Source: Candidatus Gastranaerophilales bacterium (GTDB lineage: Bacteria > Cyanobacteriota > Vampirovibrionia > Gastranaerophilales > Gastranaerophilaceae). From it: a stretch of 64,000 nucleotides of DNA. Below the pieces are notes generated by a model that was not told the origin of the DNA, did no database searches, and was given only the letters and a program-made list of their open reading frames with translations. Location of the stretch: contig JAQUVW010000003.1 of the NCBI GenBank assembly GCA_028693235.1, positions 62,001-126,000 of the forward strand, given 5' to 3'. This document shows, in pieces, positions 5,878 through 60,705 of this stretch; position 1 is the stretch's first letter, and each line of letters opens with the position of its first letter. The position numbers and the translations under genes are program-made.

Positions 5878-7821
5878 ATGGCAACAATTTTTGAAAAAAA
5901 TTTAACAGCAATTTCTCGTTATGATGATGAACTTGCAAAAAAAATAGAAAATATTCAAAAAGTTGACAACAACTTTGAACTTTCAGAAACTATTTTAAAA
6001 GAGCCAAATCTTTTGTATAACGGCATTAGCGTCCATTCCGAATCTGGTGCAGACAACGAAGCCTTGAGGATTTTTAATGCGTCAAAAGATTCTCCCAAAA
6101 GCGTTCATGTTATATATGGGCTTGGGCTTGGATACTTGTTAAAAATATTCGCAGAAAAAAGCCAAGGCAAAATCATATTATATGAGCCGAATTTGGAATT
6201 TTTGCGTATCGTGATGGAAATTGTCGATTTTTCAGACATACTTCAAAAAGAAAATATTATTATATGCAGCACCACAGAAGCTTTATATCAAGCACTTGTA
6301 ATATTATCCAATAGAAATTCAAATATTAAACTTAACTTTTTAAATTTTCATAAAAATTTATTTGCCAACGATATTGAAGCCTTTAATCAAAAATTATCAA
6401 GGTTATATTCGCAAACACTTGATGGAAAAAATTTTTCAAAAAACAACGCCATGAGATTTCTTCTTTCAACTTTAAACGGATTTAAAAACAAAATAGAAGC
6501 TATTCCATTCAAAGAACTTGAAAACAAAGCTCAAGGGATAGCAGCAATAATTGTTTCAGCGGGGCCTTCTTTACACAAAAATCTTGAAGCTCTAAAAAAG
6601 CTAGAAAACAAAGCTCTAATATTTTGCATCGCCCCCGCTTTAAATACAATACTTGAGGCAAAAATAAAACCTGATTTTATAAATGTGATTGAGCCATACG
6701 ACACATCTTCACAGATAAAAAGGCTCAATACTGCAAATTTAAACATAATCGCTGAACCATTTACAAACAAAGGTTTCTTTGAAATTGACAATAAAACAAC
6801 TTTTATAACATTTTCAGACTCATCTCCAATAAACAAATGGTTTTCAGACCTTACAAAACAAGACCCAAAAGGCTACGAAGCAAATGGAACAGTATCCTAT
6901 CAGGCATTGAACTGTGCAAAATTACTGGGCTGCAACCCGATAATTTTATTAGGGCAAGACCTCGCTTACACAGATGAGAATTGTTACTCAAAGAATTCAC
7001 CCTATGCCACATTAAAATGCAGAAAAAAAGCCAATTGTATAAAACCGCAAATAATTGCAGATGATATTGACGAATTTGCAAATGCACTTTTAGGCAACCC
7101 TGATATACCATCTGAACTAAAACGACAAATTGCACAGTCAAGAATTGACACACTAAACAAAAGTCTAACATTAGTTAAAAGCCAAGATGGAGAGCTAATT
7201 CCGACAGAATTGGGATATGCATGTTTTATAGATTACATTCAAGATTTTGCTGAAAAAAATACTAATCTTGAATTAATAAATACATCAACAGGAGGTGCTC
7301 AAATTGACGGTTTTAAAAATATAAGTCTTAATGATATAACCTTAAACACCCAAAAGCCAAATGTTGACAAATTTATACAAAATATAAACTATGAACCGAA
7401 TATAAACAATATTTTAAAAAAATTGAAACTCGACTCAGAAAAATGTAAAACTGCATTAACTCAATCTGAAAAAGGATTAAAAGAAACAATTACTACAAAA
7501 AAACTCCTCTCAAAGCACAATATATTGGACGAAAATGCAATAAAATCAATAAAAACAACGTTAAATTTTTATATGGATTTTATACAAAACACAATTGGGG
7601 ACAATCCTCTTTTAAATGCAGCATGTATAAAAGAACAAGACATGATAAATCAGCATATTTGCCAAACAAATTCGACAAATATAATTGCGGATATCCCATA
7701 TCTAACAGATGATTTACAAGGATTTTTTGAAATCACAATAACAAATATTTCAGCTATAGCGAAGCTTTTAGACGAAATAAACCAATCATTAGCAAAAAAC
7801 AATCAAATTGAAAAAATTTAA
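5878..7821 (+). CDS. DUF115 (MptE-like / motility accessory factor family) protein
   Basis: A 647-residue protein of the DUF115 / 6-hydroxymethylpterin pyrophosphokinase MptE-like family. Members include the Maf motility accessory factors that transfer nonulosonic sugars to flagellin, but the family is wider than that. The sequence shows a first Rossmann-like half (GLGLGYLLKIF followed by ILYEPN, about residues 80-105). The DUF115 core has the IVSAGPSLHKN motif near 222-232, then an acidic IEPYDTS segment and LLGQDLAYT near 355. The C-terminal 150 residues are helical, Lys/Asn-rich and coiled-coil-like. There is no signal peptide. A link to flagellin or surface glycosylation fits the flagellar genes in this window but is inference; no sialic or pseudaminic acid synthesis genes are near. 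Confidence 0.8.
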   Translation: MATIFEKNLTAISRYDDELAKKIENIQKVDNNFELSETILKEPNLLYNGISVHSESGADNEALRIFNASKDSPKSVHVIYGLGLGYLLKIFAEKSQGKIILYEPNLEFLRIVMEIVDFSDILQKENIIICSTTEALYQALVILSNRNSNIKLNFLNFHKNLFANDIEAFNQKLSRLYSQTLDGKNFSKNNAMRFLLSTLNGFKNKIEAIPFKELENKAQGIAAIIVSAGPSLHKNLEALKKLENKALIFCIAPALNTILEAKIKPDFINVIEPYDTSSQIKRLNTANLNIIAEPFTNKGFFEIDNKTTFITFSDSSPINKWFSDLTKQDPKGYEANGTVSYQALNCAKLLGCNPIILLGQDLAYTDENCYSKNSPYATLKCRKKANCIKPQIIADDIDEFANALLGNPDIPSELKRQIAQSRIDTLNKSLTLVKSQDGELIPTELGYACFIDYIQDFAEKNTNLELINTSTGGAQIDGFKNISLNDITLNTQKPNVDKFIQNINYEPNINNILKKLKLDSEKCKTALTQSEKGLKETITTKKLLSKHNILDENAIKSIKTTLNFYMDFIQNTIGDNPLLNAACIKEQDMINQHICQTNSTNIIADIPYLTDDLQGFFEITITNISAIAKLLDEINQSLAKNNQIEKI

Positions 7822-7873
7822 TACTTGTCATTTCTTATTTTTACATATAAAATAGAAAATGAATTATATCCTA

Positions 7874-7909
7874 TGCAAGTTACGGAGAGGAATTACATTT
7901 TTACTTGCA
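7874..7909 (+). promoter_or_regulatory. Hairpin in the leader of the zinc-ribbon repeat gene
   Basis: TGCAAGT (7874-7880) and ACTTGCA (7903-7909) form a perfect 7-bp inverted repeat with a 22-nt loop that contains the purine-rich GGAGAGG. It lies 21 nt before the start codon. It is too far upstream to hide the ribosome site directly, and there is no U tract. A protein-binding leader hairpin is possible. Confidence 0.35.
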
Positions 7910-7930
7910 ACATAAAAGGGGCTAACCTAA

Positions 7931-8989
7931 ATGTATATTAATAAGTGCACTAAATGTGGAGCAGAGTTTGAGACAAAGAACCCTAAGCGTGTTATTTGTC
8001 CTAATTGTTTGTATCCTGAAAAAAAATCCACAGAATCTCAATCTGGAACTGAGGCTGAAAAGCCTGTACAAAGAGCATCCTATAGTTCTGAAGCCGAGTA
8101 CGGTGACAGAGAACGACGTCCTTATAATGCTGATAGAGGCGGTGTCAGACCTCAATACAACAGCTACAATCGTGATAGAGGCGACCGACCTTATAACAAC
8201 AATTATAATCGTGACCGTGGTGGCGACAGACCTTACAACAATTATAACCGTGACCGTGGTGGCGACCGACCTTATAACAACAACTACAACCGTGACCGTG
8301 GTGAGCAGCCTGCTGACAGACCATACAACAACTATAACCGTAGCGACCGTGGTGGTGACAGACCCTATAACAACTACAACCGTGACAGAGGTGACAGACC
8401 TCAATACAACAACTACAACAGAGGCGATCAGCCAGCTGACAGACCATACAACAACTATAACCGTGGCGACCATGGCGGTGACCGACCTTATAACAACTAC
8501 AACCGTGGCGGTGGCAACAGACCTCAAGGCGGATTTAACCGCAGACCTGGTTTTAACAGAAGACCTCAAAGACCTAAACAACTTTTGGTCAGCAAAGAAC
8601 AACTTGAACAAATTGAAATACTTTATAAAAAAACTTTACCTTTGCCAAATCCTGATATTCACGAAGTTATTGGCTCTGCTATTGATTTGGAAGCAAGAAA
8701 AGTATTCTTTGGTATCAATTTAATCAGACAAAAAATGATGCTACCGAAACTTCCTTTCCCAAAAAGAAAATTGGCAGTTTCACCAGATCAACTAATGGCA
8801 ATAAAAGCACTTTATGAACCATTACTTCCATTGCCTCCAATCGGCTGTCACAAGATTATCGCTATCCAATTGAAAATGGACGAATGGCGAGTTCATGTAG
8901 GTATCGGACTTGTCAGGAAACAAATGGGACTTGACCGTTGGAATCCTGATAGACCTGATGCACCTGAGGAATTTAAGAAAAAAGATTAA
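7931..8989 (+). CDS. Zinc-ribbon, Asn/Arg/Asp-repeat protein with duplicated C-terminal domain
   Basis: A 352-residue protein I do not recognise as a named family. Three parts are visible. Residues 6-26 are a zinc ribbon (C6-x2-C9, C23-x2-C26). Residues about 62-212 are a low-complexity region of about eight 12-17 residue units built on RPYNNYNRDRGGD, rich in Arg, Gly, Asn and Tyr, resembling RGG-type RNA-binding tails. Residues about 217-278 and 281-337 are two copies of a ~57-residue domain sharing L.V...QL..I..LY...LPLP...H..I......V..GI.L.R..M. The stop is 2 nt before rimM, so it is transcribed and probably coupled with rimM-trmD, where other bacteria often have rpsP and a KH-domain gene. 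An RNA or ribosome-assembly role is inferred from that position and composition. Confidence 0.8.
   Translation: MYINKCTKCGAEFETKNPKRVICPNCLYPEKKSTESQSGTEAEKPVQRASYSSEAEYGDRERRPYNADRGGVRPQYNSYNRDRGDRPYNNNYNRDRGGDRPYNNYNRDRGGDRPYNNNYNRDRGEQPADRPYNNYNRSDRGGDRPYNNYNRDRGDRPQYNNYNRGDQPADRPYNNYNRGDHGGDRPYNNYNRGGGNRPQGGFNRRPGFNRRPQRPKQLLVSKEQLEQIEILYKKTLPLPNPDIHEVIGSAIDLEARKVFFGINLIRQKMMLPKLPFPKRKLAVSPDQLMAIKALYEPLLPLPPIGCHKIIAIQLKMDEWRVHVGIGLVRKQMGLDRWNPDRPDAPEEFKKKD
8114..8531 (+). repeat. Imperfect in-frame tandem repeats (36-51 nt units)
   Basis: About eight degenerate units encoding the RPYNNYNRDRGGD-type repeats. All unit lengths are multiples of three, so the frame is kept, with unit size varying from 12 to 17 codons (QPAD insertions at two or three sites). 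Synonymous changes between units show the array is under protein-level constraint. The array also produces long spurious open frames on both strands. Confidence 0.85.
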
Positions 8990-8991
8990 TC

Positions 8992-9504
8992 ATGGAAAAT
9001 CTTATTTCAGTTGCTAAAATAGTGAATTTTCACGGAATTAAAGGTGAAGTAAAAGTCGGCTTTACAAAAGGTAAAGACGAGCAAATAGCTTCTACAAAAT
9101 GCTTTTACCTAAAAGTGAACGACTCGACAACTAAACTAATTGTCAATTCAGTCAAATTTCACAAGGGGTATGCAATAATTAAATTTGATGAAATTAACTC
9201 AATTAACGACGCCGAAAAATACAAAGGATTCAACTTGTATCTTGAAGAATCACTGGTCAAAAATAATCTTGCTCAAGATGAGTATTTGGTTAGCGATCTC
9301 CAAGGTATAGAGGTATTTGATACTGACAACAAAAAAATCGGCGTGGTTTGCTCCGTTGGAGAAAATAACGCAAATGACCTACTTACAGTTATCGACACAA
9401 ATGACAAAAAACACTTAATTCCATTCGTAAAAGACCTCGTTCCTTATGTTGATTTAAAAAACAGAAAATTGATTATTAACAACATAGAAGGACTTATAAA
9501 TTGA
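8992..9504 (+). CDS. rimM: Ribosome maturation factor RimM
   Basis: Assists assembly of the 30S subunit head by binding protein S19. The 170-residue length is normal. The N-terminal domain begins with the family pattern AKIVNFHGIKGEVKV, and the C-terminal PRC-barrel half contains DLQGIEVFDTDNKKIG and LIPFVKDLVPYVDLKNRKL, close to the family's usual sequence. It starts 2 nt after the repeat protein and its TGA overlaps the trmD start codon (TTGA), so the three genes form one coupled unit. Confidence 0.95.
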   Translation: MENLISVAKIVNFHGIKGEVKVGFTKGKDEQIASTKCFYLKVNDSTTKLIVNSVKFHKGYAIIKFDEINSINDAEKYKGFNLYLEESLVKNNLAQDEYLVSDLQGIEVFDTDNKKIGVVCSVGENNANDLLTVIDTNDKKHLIPFVKDLVPYVDLKNRKLIINNIEGLIN

Positions 9505-10241
9505 ATTTTAATGTCTTAACTCTGTTCCCAGAATTAATCAAACAATCTTGCAATCATAGCATTATAAAACGTGCTAAAGAAAATAATTTTATACAAATAA
9601 ATACAATAAATCCTCGTGATTTTACCCTTGATAAGCACAAAAAAGTTGATGATTCACCATATGGTGGCGGAGCAGGCATGGTTTTGGCATGCCAACCTTT
9701 TTTAGATGCATTAAAAAGCATAGAAAAAATCGATAATGCTGAAACAATAATACTAACTCCTCAAGGTGAAAAATATACACAACAGATTGCTTGGGAATTT
9801 GCAAAAAAAGACCAACTAAACATAATTTGCGGTCACTACGAAGGTTTTGACGAAAGAATCAGAACATTATCTAAAGCAAGAGAAATTTCTTTAGGAGATT
9901 TTGTTTTAACTGGTGGCGAATATCCGGCATTATGCATTATAGACAGCGTTTCAAGACTTATCAAAGGGACACTTGGAGATGATGATTCGGCAAAATTCGA
10001 CAGTCATTCAGAAGGTCTTTTGGAATATCCTCAATATACAAAACCTCGTTCATACGAAAATTTAGATGTCCCGGAAGTAATACTCAACGGGAATCACGCC
10101 GAAATCAACAAATGGAGAAGACTGCAACAATTTATCAGGACTAAACAAAAACGCCCCGATATGTGGATTAACTTTTTAAAACAAAATTTATCTAAAATTG
10201 ACATTAAAATATTAAAAGAGTACAAAGATATTTTAGAATAA
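9501..10241 (+). CDS. trmD: tRNA (guanine-37-N1)-methyltransferase TrmD
   Basis: Methylates N1 of G37 in tRNAs, preventing frameshifting. A 246-residue SPOUT (knotted) methyltransferase. Start is TTG at 9501, giving MNFNVLTLFPEL, which matches the family's conserved N-terminus. Motifs include DDSPYGGGAGMV, GHYEGFDERI and the knot segment GDFVLTGGEYPAL. The start codon overlaps the rimM stop by 4 nt with AGGA upstream. No rplS follows, unlike the common rpsP-rimM-trmD-rplS order. Confidence 0.97.
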   Translation: MNFNVLTLFPELIKQSCNHSIIKRAKENNFIQINTINPRDFTLDKHKKVDDSPYGGGAGMVLACQPFLDALKSIEKIDNAETIILTPQGEKYTQQIAWEFAKKDQLNIICGHYEGFDERIRTLSKAREISLGDFVLTGGEYPALCIIDSVSRLIKGTLGDDDSAKFDSHSEGLLEYPQYTKPRSYENLDVPEVILNGNHAEINKWRRLQQFIRTKQKRPDMWINFLKQNLSKIDIKILKEYKDILE

Positions 10242-58065: not shown

Positions 58066-60705
58066 TTATACAAGCACTTGGCGTTCAACTTCTTCTGTTG
58101 TTGAAACCTCAATAATGTCACCTTCACGAATATCGTTAAATTTCGCAAAAGAAACACCGCACTCAAAGCCCTGTGCTACTTCTTTAGCATCATCTTTAAA
58201 ACGTTTTAACTGGTCAATTTGACCTCTAAAAACTTCAACACCATCTCGGAGAAGAACAGCCGTCTTATTTCTGATAATCTTGCCTTCAAGAACATAGCAG
58301 CCGGCAATCTTAGATGTTTTACCGACAGTAAAGATTTGTCTGACTTCGGCTCTTCCAAGTTCAACCTCTTTGATTTCAGGTTGAAGAAGACTCAACATTG
58401 TTTGTTCAAGATCTTCCAAAATTTGATATATTATCTCGTATTTTTTGATAACGACTTTTTCTTTTTCGGCAGCTAATTGTGCATTCAAATCTTCCTTAAC
58501 GCCGAAGCCTAAAATTAAAGCCTCACTTGCACTAGCAAGCATTACATCAGCTTCAGAAATATCACCGACACCTACATGTATAAGCTTAGTAACAATTTCT
58601 TTTGATTCAAGTTGAGAAACAGCCTGAGAAACCGCCTCTGCAGCACCGTTTGTATTTGCCTTAATGATTAAATTCAATTTTTTGATTTCTGAATCTTCTT
58701 CGCCAACGACCTCATTTCTAACATGAGCAGGCATCATAGCTTCTAATCTTGTATTACGTTCTTTCTCCTTGCGTTCATTTGCTATAGCACGCATTTCCTT
58801 TTCATTTTCAACAGCTTGGAAATTGTCACCTGCCTGAGGAACTTCGGTTAACCCTAAGACCTCAACAGGAGTAGAAGGAGCCGCTTTTTTTACTCTCTCG
58901 CCTGAATCTGACAACAAGGCTCTAACTTTACCAAAGACAGTACCTACGACTAAACAGTCACCTGTTTTCAATGTACCGTTTTGAACTAATAATGTAGCAA
59001 CCGGACCTTTTCCCTTGTCTAAATTTGCCTCAATAACAACACCTGAAGCCTTAGCTGAAGGAATAGCTTTTAAGCCTTGCATTTCAGCGACAAGTAAAAT
59101 ATATTCTAGGAGCTCATCAATACCTGTACCTTGAAGTGCACTGACTTTAACGCAAACAGTATCGCCACCCCATTCTTCAGGAACCAAACCGTGTTCAGTC
59201 AGTTGTTGAAGGATTTTGTCAGGGTTAGCACCCGGCTTATCAATTTTGTTTACAGCAACAATAATTGGGATTTCAGCGGCTCTTGCGTGGTTTATAGCTT
59301 CAATAGTTTGAGGCATAATTCCATCATCAGCAGCAACGACCAAAATTGCTATATCAGTTGATTTTGCACCACGAGCTCTCATTTCTGTAAACGCTTCGTG
59401 ACCAGGAGTGTCAATAAATACAATTTTTTTGTTGTTTAAAAAAACCGTATAAGCACCAATTGATTGAGTGATACCACCGACTTCTGTTGAAACAATTTTA
59501 TGCTTGGAAGCTCTGATTGAATCCAACAATGTAGTTTTACCGTGGTCAACGTGTCCCATGATACTAATTACAGGAGCTCTTGACTTTAATAGCTTTTCAT
59601 CAATTTCTTTCAAAGCTTTTTCTTTTTCTTCTTTTTGAAGTTCTTTTTCTATATAAGCGTCCAAATCTTCTTCAAGGACTTCAAGTTCAAAATTTTCGCA
59701 AACTTTTTTTTGAGTTTTAGCGTCAATAACTTGGTTTACAGTAGCCAAAACGCCTTCCATCATTAAAAACTTAACGATTTCGGCAGGTGATTTATCAATT
59801 TTATCAGCCAATTCACCGACGGTTAAAACTTGATTAATAACGACTTTGGTTAAAGCCTCTTTAGCTTCCTCTTCATGTTTATGTTTTTTCTTATGTTTTT
59901 GGGTAGCTTTTTCAAGACTTATAAGTTCTTGTTGTTCTTCTTTAGATTTATATTGTTTTTCTTTGCCCTTAACGATTTTGCGTTTAGCACCCGGTTTTGA
60001 ATCATAAATATCTTGAGGAATAATATGTCTTTTTACCGGTTTATAAGGCTCGGTTTTCTTCTGAGCGTTGTCACCGGTTGGTTTTGGACCTCTCGGAGCT
60101 TGACCTGCTTGAGGCACGTTATTATTCGGGTTACGAGATTTATCAAATCTACGATTATTATTCGGATAAGGACGTCCGCCTTGAGATGGTCTATTTTGTC
60201 TTTCAGCTCTTGCTTTAGCTGCAGCTTCCATTTTTTCTTTTTCGAGTTTACGTTCTTTTTGAGCTTGTTGCTCAGCTTCACGTCTTTTTAAACTGTTACG
60301 ATTATTGTATTCAAGCAGAGAACGAATATCTGGAGTTTTTTGTGTTTTAGTATAAGTAACAGAGGAAGTATCAGGTTTAACTTGAGGACCATCATGACTG
60401 ATTATAGTTTTTTTATCAGGCTCAATATTCTGAGTTTTTTCTTCTTTTTTTTCTTCGATTTCAACTTTTTGCACTTCAGGTTTTGCAGCCGGTTTAGCTT
60501 TTTTAACAATAAAAGCTTTTGGTTTTTTGTCAGCTGCAGATTTAGATGGGTGCAACATCTCTTTAAGATTAGTTATTTGAGTAGCAGAAAGTGTACTGGA
60601 GTGAGATTTTCCTTTTATTCCCAGTTTTTGTTCAAGGCATTCTATAACTTGTTTATTGGAAATGCCCAGTTCTTTAGCTACTTCATATACTCTTTTGTCA
60701 GTCAT
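58066..60705 (-). CDS. infB: Translation initiation factor IF-2
   Basis: GTPase that places initiator tRNA on the ribosome. 879 residues: an N-terminal winged-helix IF2-N module (about 1-55), a long low-complexity Lys/Glu/Arg/Asn region (about 60-250, with RPYPNNNRRFD-like runs resembling the repeats of the 7931-8989 protein), a second IF2-N module, then GTPase motifs GHVDHGKTT (near 385), DTPGHEAF and NKIDKP, and C-terminal beta-barrel domains. The gap before it is 51 nt; the ribosome site is weak (AGAAGAAAG). Confidence 0.97.
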   Translation of the reverse strand: MTDKRVYEVAKELGISNKQVIECLEQKLGIKGKSHSSTLSATQITNLKEMLHPSKSAADKKPKAFIVKKAKPAAKPEVQKVEIEEKKEEKTQNIEPDKKTIISHDGPQVKPDTSSVTYTKTQKTPDIRSLLEYNNRNSLKRREAEQQAQKERKLEKEKMEAAAKARAERQNRPSQGGRPYPNNNRRFDKSRNPNNNVPQAGQAPRGPKPTGDNAQKKTEPYKPVKRHIIPQDIYDSKPGAKRKIVKGKEKQYKSKEEQQELISLEKATQKHKKKHKHEEEAKEALTKVVINQVLTVGELADKIDKSPAEIVKFLMMEGVLATVNQVIDAKTQKKVCENFELEVLEEDLDAYIEKELQKEEKEKALKEIDEKLLKSRAPVISIMGHVDHGKTTLLDSIRASKHKIVSTEVGGITQSIGAYTVFLNNKKIVFIDTPGHEAFTEMRARGAKSTDIAILVVAADDGIMPQTIEAINHARAAEIPIIVAVNKIDKPGANPDKILQQLTEHGLVPEEWGGDTVCVKVSALQGTGIDELLEYILLVAEMQGLKAIPSAKASGVVIEANLDKGKGPVATLLVQNGTLKTGDCLVVGTVFGKVRALLSDSGERVKKAAPSTPVEVLGLTEVPQAGDNFQAVENEKEMRAIANERKEKERNTRLEAMMPAHVRNEVVGEEDSEIKKLNLIIKANTNGAAEAVSQAVSQLESKEIVTKLIHVGVGDISEADVMLASASEALILGFGVKEDLNAQLAAEKEKVVIKKYEIIYQILEDLEQTMLSLLQPEIKEVELGRAEVRQIFTVGKTSKIAGCYVLEGKIIRNKTAVLLRDGVEVFRGQIDQLKRFKDDAKEVAQGFECGVSFAKFNDIREGDIIEVSTTEEVERQVLV

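Follow-up and report, generated by a model that had tools for sequence, protein, structure and literature searches.

Homeodomains carry the signature W48-F49-x-N51-x-R53 in their recognition helix, and Arg/Tyr- and RGG-rich disordered segments are typical of nucleic-acid-binding proteins. In the window, that is, the whole 64,000-nucleotide stretch of a Candidatus Gastranaerophilales genome analysed here, a plus-strand gene at 7931..8989 encodes a 352-aa protein (ATG start) that invites comparison with both, being composed of a putative zinc ribbon, a segment predicted to be disordered and a tandem pair of putative HTH units. Its tandem domain shares with homeodomains and with DUX4 a predicted three-helix HTH, the tandem layout, a hydrophobic core of helices 1 and 2 and an Arg at position 53, and Homeodomain or DUX4 was its best match in Pfam, hhalign and Foldseek. 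Like RGG-rich segments, the disordered segment favours Arg over Lys, has Tyr/Phe as stickers and Gly/Asn/Gln/Pro as spacers, and contains hardly any aliphatic residues; unlike those known, it is found in a bacterial protein, flanked by a ribbon on one side and a tandem HTH on the other, and we infer that it clusters this protein. On balance we take the protein to be, probably though not firmly, a lineage-specific DNA-binding factor of the nucleoid or of transcription, whose disordered segment would be multivalent and perhaps condensate-forming.

A preliminary description of this DNA had proposed a three-part architecture for the open reading frame at 7931-8989, and all three parts were recovered: the ribbon, eight RPYN repeats and a duplicated domain. 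The ORF is present as a single copy in its genome, and is preceded by a ribosome-binding site, AAAAGGGG, at 7914-7921 and by a sigma-70-like promoter, TTGTCA-17-TAAAAT, at 7825..7853 (both plus strand). This promoter is a consensus match only; the pattern TTGnnn-16/18-TAnnnT was present in 75 of 122 upstream regions. Because it has its own ribosome-binding site and consensus promoter, the ORF probably heads the run that continues into rimM (8992-9504) and trmD (9501-10241), both on the plus strand and both identified by Pfam and NCBIfam; as described before, it ends 2 nt ahead of the rimM start at 8992. In addition to the ribosome-binding site, the 5' leader contains a purine-rich element, GGAGAGGAA, at 7884..7892 (plus strand), and GAGGA/GGAGAG/GAGAGG occurred in 87 of the 122 upstream regions, compared with a mean of 6.8 and a maximum of 15 in shuffled sequences (n=200). 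In these sequences the GGAGAGG/GAGGAG element, a possible regulatory RNA or protein site, precedes the start codon by a median of ~60 nt. Inspection by eye of the listed upstream sequences revealed no leader peptide after this element, and Rfam gave no match over 7700-9100 at the gathering threshold. A 7-bp inverted repeat, TGCAAGT...ACTTGCA, lies at 7874-7909, between the promoter and the start codon.

The N-terminal zinc ribbon, MYINKCTKCGAEFETKNPKRVICPNCLYPE, occupies residues 1-30 (7931..8020, plus strand) and has two CxxC knuckles, C6-C9 and C23-C26; its FETKNPKR motif and four cysteines were invariant in 14 of 14 aligned rows, these rows having been chosen. In the full-length AlphaFold model it forms two strands with a pLDDT of ~90, and from sequence and model a zinc-binding knuckle pair is predicted, while a Pfam search of the window protein returned no ribbon family at its cut-off. 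The ribbon was carried by 126 distinct full-length proteins in the examined loci. Since 'full length' was defined by the ribbon in the search pattern, what counts is the 14 ribbon-less loci, every one of which begins at a DNA end and not within a contig.

The tandem domain consists of copy 1 at 8582..8764 and the more conserved copy 2 at 8771..8953 (plus strand), which are identical in 21 of 61 residues in an ungapped alignment. Their Smith-Waterman score of 96 exceeded every one of 2000 shuffles (22.5 +/- 4.3, maximum 47), so the duplication is not a matter of chance, and the tandem domain claimed earlier is confirmed with copies of ~61 residues. The copies are joined by a basic linker, LPKLPFPKRKLA, at 8741..8776 (plus strand), which is conserved over 114 sequences and whose stretch MMLPKLPFPKRKLAV has a net charge of +4. 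Structure prediction, which had been suggested for the tandem domain, gave a three-helix HTH arrangement for each copy: AlphaFold (50 sequences; mean pLDDT 81.6, pTM 0.47) placed six helices, three in each copy, at residues 222-235, 243-251 and 255-268 in copy 1 and at 285-298, 306-314 and 318-332 in copy 2, and the full-length model (31 sequences) contained the same six. The net charge of the domain is only ~+4, and the third helices are basic (+4 and +2); an Arg in helix 3 is invariant in both copies, and the third helices also bear hydrophobic residues (ARKVFFGINLIRQK).

When compared with the PDB by Foldseek, the domain model returned the DUX4 double homeodomain in its first three rows (E 0.21, prob 0.90) and the full-length model returned it in the first five (E 0.02, prob 0.95), with no row at E<=0.001 for either model; NarL appeared as a single-domain row (prob 0.90 and 0.94). 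By VIA-align, BirA winged helices, SelB, DUX4 and single homeodomains all fell within Z 5.2-6.1, and because these rows tie at similar Z, the predicted structure alone names only an HTH. With this spread, none of the VIA rows was accepted as a family name.

Searching with the duplicated domain, as had been proposed, named no family: Pfam and NCBIfam had none for the window protein or the tandem domain, a PDB sequence search found no match for the tandem domain or the single-domain profile, PHROGs gave no family and two chance-level rows, and NCBIfam, with 23 relatives, gave one chance-level row only. The only repeated lead, which came from the relatives, was the Pfam Homeodomain (PF00046). Of 23 diverse relatives, 18 matched it at E<=1 (lowest E 1.7e-6), several of them with both copies, and it was the sole model of 24,736 in Pfam matched by most of the 23, the other rows being Tex_N, DUF7657, DUF2680 and Bfc, with 1-4 members each. 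One relative reached 28.2 bits against a gathering cut-off of 22.9 with its two copies summed, and since such summing of two paralogous copies makes the E of 1.7e-6 overstate the case, we read that value with reserve. The window protein itself did not match the Pfam Homeodomain, and single domains matched it in 2 of 18 cases (best E 0.028, below the Pfam cut-off). A whole-genome search with PF00046 left the family below the cut-off in 38 of 38 genomes, and in those genomes, as in 11 of 14 controls, unrelated background matches reached a similar size.

Profile-profile comparison by hhalign is a more independent test than the summed Pfam score. Against a homeodomain profile copy 1 scored 62.6%, copy 2 61.9% and the pooled copies 88.0%, compared with at most 32.0% against profiles of GerE, sigma region 4, Myb and AsnC; all 150 column-shuffled decoys scored below each of the three queries. 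The sequences behind the homeodomain and control profiles were entered by hand, and the control sets were small. The GerE/NarL-type HTH has three helices in common with the tandem domain but is set apart by this comparison (<=32% vs 88% for the homeodomain). The homeodomain match itself stops early in the recognition helix, before most of that helix. Extending the hhalign register gave G/A48, I49 (M49 in one row), L51 and R53 at the hallmark positions: the bacterial protein differs from homeodomains and DUX4 in having Gly/Ala and Leu in place of W48 and N51, and R53, invariant, is all that is kept of the signature. For these reasons we call the domain homeodomain-like and not a homeodomain. 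Literature searches, which covered the sources in part and do not prove absence, found no paper on bacterial or prokaryotic homeodomains by exact phrase and nothing on the tandem-HTH family.

Between the ribbon and the HTH pair, the Arg/Asn/Tyr/Gly-rich segment at 8033..8578 (plus strand) contains the eight RPYN repeats, with tandem-repeat arrays of 39/42/90/123 bp at 8157-8527. The preliminary description had likened this region to disordered RG/Asn/Tyr-rich segments, which agrees with a pLDDT <50 over residues 35-203 of the full-length AlphaFold model (31 sequences) and with a composition kept across relatives. There the segment is 80-245 residues long (median 135); Arg averages 13%, Lys 4.5%, Tyr+Phe 10% and Ile/Leu/Val/Met/Trp/Cys together 2.5%, even as the repeat units vary (RPYNNYNRDRGGD, GYNRDNREGGYNRPQG, GGYGPPRQ, YQPRPYQGQQQGGG). 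An AT-hook-like RGR[PK] tail was found in 54 of the 126 full-length relatives; at that position the C-terminal tail of the window protein has only EFKKKD. A similar Asn/Arg stretch had been reported in IF-2 at 58066-60705. The gene and the stretch, in the N-terminal part of IF-2, are indeed there, but on the minus strand, and the stretch (RQNRPSQGGRPYPNNNRRFDKSRNPNNN) is much shorter than the disordered segment of the 7931-8989 protein.

Throughout the order of the window and in three other families of the same class, a group of non-photosynthetic, mostly gut-dwelling relatives of the cyanobacteria, the protein is single-copy and nearly universal; the cyanobacteria sampled lack it. Thirty-six of 39 near relatives, the window genome counted, had the tandem domain, and among the better genomes the figure was 33 of 33. 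Across the phylum it was found in 174 of 386 genomes, which apart from one antisense case (G280) comprise the window's order and one genome of its class, and the single-domain profile matched 177 of the 386, including one weak cyanobacterial row (E 0.008). Of the two cyanobacterial matches, G280 (E 4.5e-4) was rejected, being antisense in a repeat-rich ORF, and G362 (E 0.008) is presumed to be chance. A profile search of the class matched 209 of 289 genomes (204 of the 244 better ones), in the families of the window's order and in f9, f50 and f51, with no match in f8, f10, f47, f48 or f49; in this phylogenetic profile, which had been called for earlier, the group that carries the protein is probably Vampirovibrionia. 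One relative has a second, partial match (G012:C29:66458-66562; 35 residues, 83% identity, in a 190-aa open frame) that covers the beginning of the tandem domain and is perhaps a gene fragment. A pattern scan across named genomes returned 433 matches, of which 409 are relatives; 80 loci were kept, belonging to Gastranaerophilales, Melainabacteria, one Cyanobacteria MAG and untyped bacteria, many of them from gut and rumen; in these, mean identity to the window was 86% for the HTH region, 51% for RimM and 63% for TrmD.

Strict spacing identified rimM as the next same-strand gene in 69 of the 80 kept loci, and 7 others have it there with an overlapping stop-to-stop ORF, which makes 76 of 79 evaluable loci, one locus being without room; L076, L078 and L131 lacked rimM downstream. 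Outside the window's family rimM was located in seven genomes (G026, G028, G029, G363, G409, G428 and G452), and in every one it is either >1 Mb from the tandem gene or on a different contig; a further genome outside the family, G025, had no rimM match. The synteny with rimM-trmD that relatives were expected to keep is thus absent from the genomes examined beyond the window's family (0 of 7). Because rimM is distant there though the protein is conserved, the coupling is a family-level arrangement and the tandem-HTH protein is older. Neighbours outside the family, named by eye from the beginnings of ORFs, were L-serine dehydratase-like (f9, f51), secE-nusG-like, gatB-like, glmS-like and infC-rplT-like; the tandem-HTH gene has no fixed operon, and these varied neighbours therefore indicate no dedicated pathway. 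In the window's genome rpsP, whose place the gene had been said to take, lies elsewhere (G000:C3:345163, ~275 kb away). The gene upstream, at 5878-7821, matched MptE-like and Maf glycosyltransferase N-terminal domains and, below the cut-off, a flagellin-modification model; a relative of it was found on the plus strand in 8 of the 80 kept loci.

The ribbon profile also gave weak matches (E 0.006-0.045) in f47 and f49, families without the tandem protein, to frames of 343-409 residues (e.g. L215 to L218 and L232 to L234). These MerR_1-HTH cousins resemble the tandem protein in combining an HTH, a long low-complexity segment (in one, RNDRNDRGDRSDRNNERNYDRD) and a CxxC..FExxNPKxRxCxxC ribbon, with the sequence CQTCGKxFEHxNPKLRDCLDCYR. 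However, their HTH is of the MerR type (PF13411; 35.6 and 37.2 bits, above the Pfam cut-off in both tested), their ribbon lies mid-protein, and they have a conserved C-terminal part of their own, RSYKRAIEETRQITGSIKRRLERPDLPESERRWLEQIYAYQLILHQGW. The cousins were present in 50 of the 289 class genomes, all f47 or f49, and the two class searches (289 genomes) found no genome with both proteins. The replacement of one HTH type by another next to a common ribbon would give such a pattern, and common descent of the lineages could account equally well for the complementary distribution.

As a DNA-binding factor, the protein would contact the double helix through its two homeodomain-like HTH units, in tandem and joined by the basic linker, while the N-terminal zinc ribbon may provide a further protein or nucleic-acid contact. 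The Arg/Tyr-rich segment would make many weak contacts, spreading or clustering the protein on DNA, and in many relatives the Lys-rich AT-hook-like tail would add weak DNA contacts. Its role would then be a broad one, in the nucleoid or in general transcription; we infer all three, the DNA ligand, the clustering and the global role. A homeodomain-like HTH, as predicted from sequence and model, would fit DNA better than RNA, with which it stays compatible; SelB, among the Foldseek rows for the domain model, is a case of HTH units able to bind RNA. The basic third helices, the AT-hook-like tails and the MerR HTH in the ribbon-bearing sister proteins may be counted toward DNA binding, the last with the reserve that the ribbon match is weak. 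Against it weigh the modest net charge of the domain, the weak Homeodomain matches of single copies and the tie of DUX4 with BirA winged helices in structure comparison.

The coupling to rimM-trmD had led to the earlier suggestion of a role in translation or on RNA. In such a scheme the protein would bind RNA in ribosome assembly or bind mRNA, its RG/Y segment would be an RNA tether or condensate former, and it would therefore be co-expressed with RimM and TrmD. The 76 loci with rimM directly downstream agree with this, as do the excess of Arg over Lys together with the Tyr+Phe content of the disordered segment, the other translation-type neighbours seen by eye in some relatives, and the conserved purine-rich leader element, which could be an autoregulatory binding site. 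The suggestion is weakened by the distance of rimM in all seven outside-family genomes where it was located, by the L-serine dehydratase-like neighbours in f9 and f51 and by the resemblance of the folded part to DNA-binding HTH units, and we regard an RNA-binding protein as doubtful. Less probable still, in our estimate, is that the HTH units are protein-interaction modules and that the protein, binding no nucleic acid itself, is an accessory factor held on RNA polymerase by its ribbon or its HTH pair. Zinc ribbons are common in transcription factors, and one relative's ribbon gave a weak Spt4/RpoE2 match (E 0.098); the hydrophobic residues of the third helices would also suit protein contacts. 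The invariant helix-3 Arg in both copies, the basic linker and the AT-hook-like tails argue against such a factor.

A bolder proposal, which we consider unlikely as a whole, is that these proteins form a bacterial double-homeodomain-like family: an ancient relative of the homeodomain, tandem-duplicated and fused to a ribbon and the Arg/Tyr-rich disordered segment, would be the chief nucleoid protein or general transcription factor in much of Vampirovibrionia and would organise DNA into condensates, a task that the MerR cousin would perform in the sister families. The protein is near-ubiquitous and strongly conserved in a widespread gut lineage and is unnamed in the libraries searched, and its architecture, an HTH pair with a disordered Arg/Tyr-rich segment, is one familiar from eukaryotic transcription factors. 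If it does bind and cluster on DNA, it would offer a bacterial example in which the part of sticker-type disorder in organising a genome can be tested and, possibly, a prokaryotic relative of the homeodomain.
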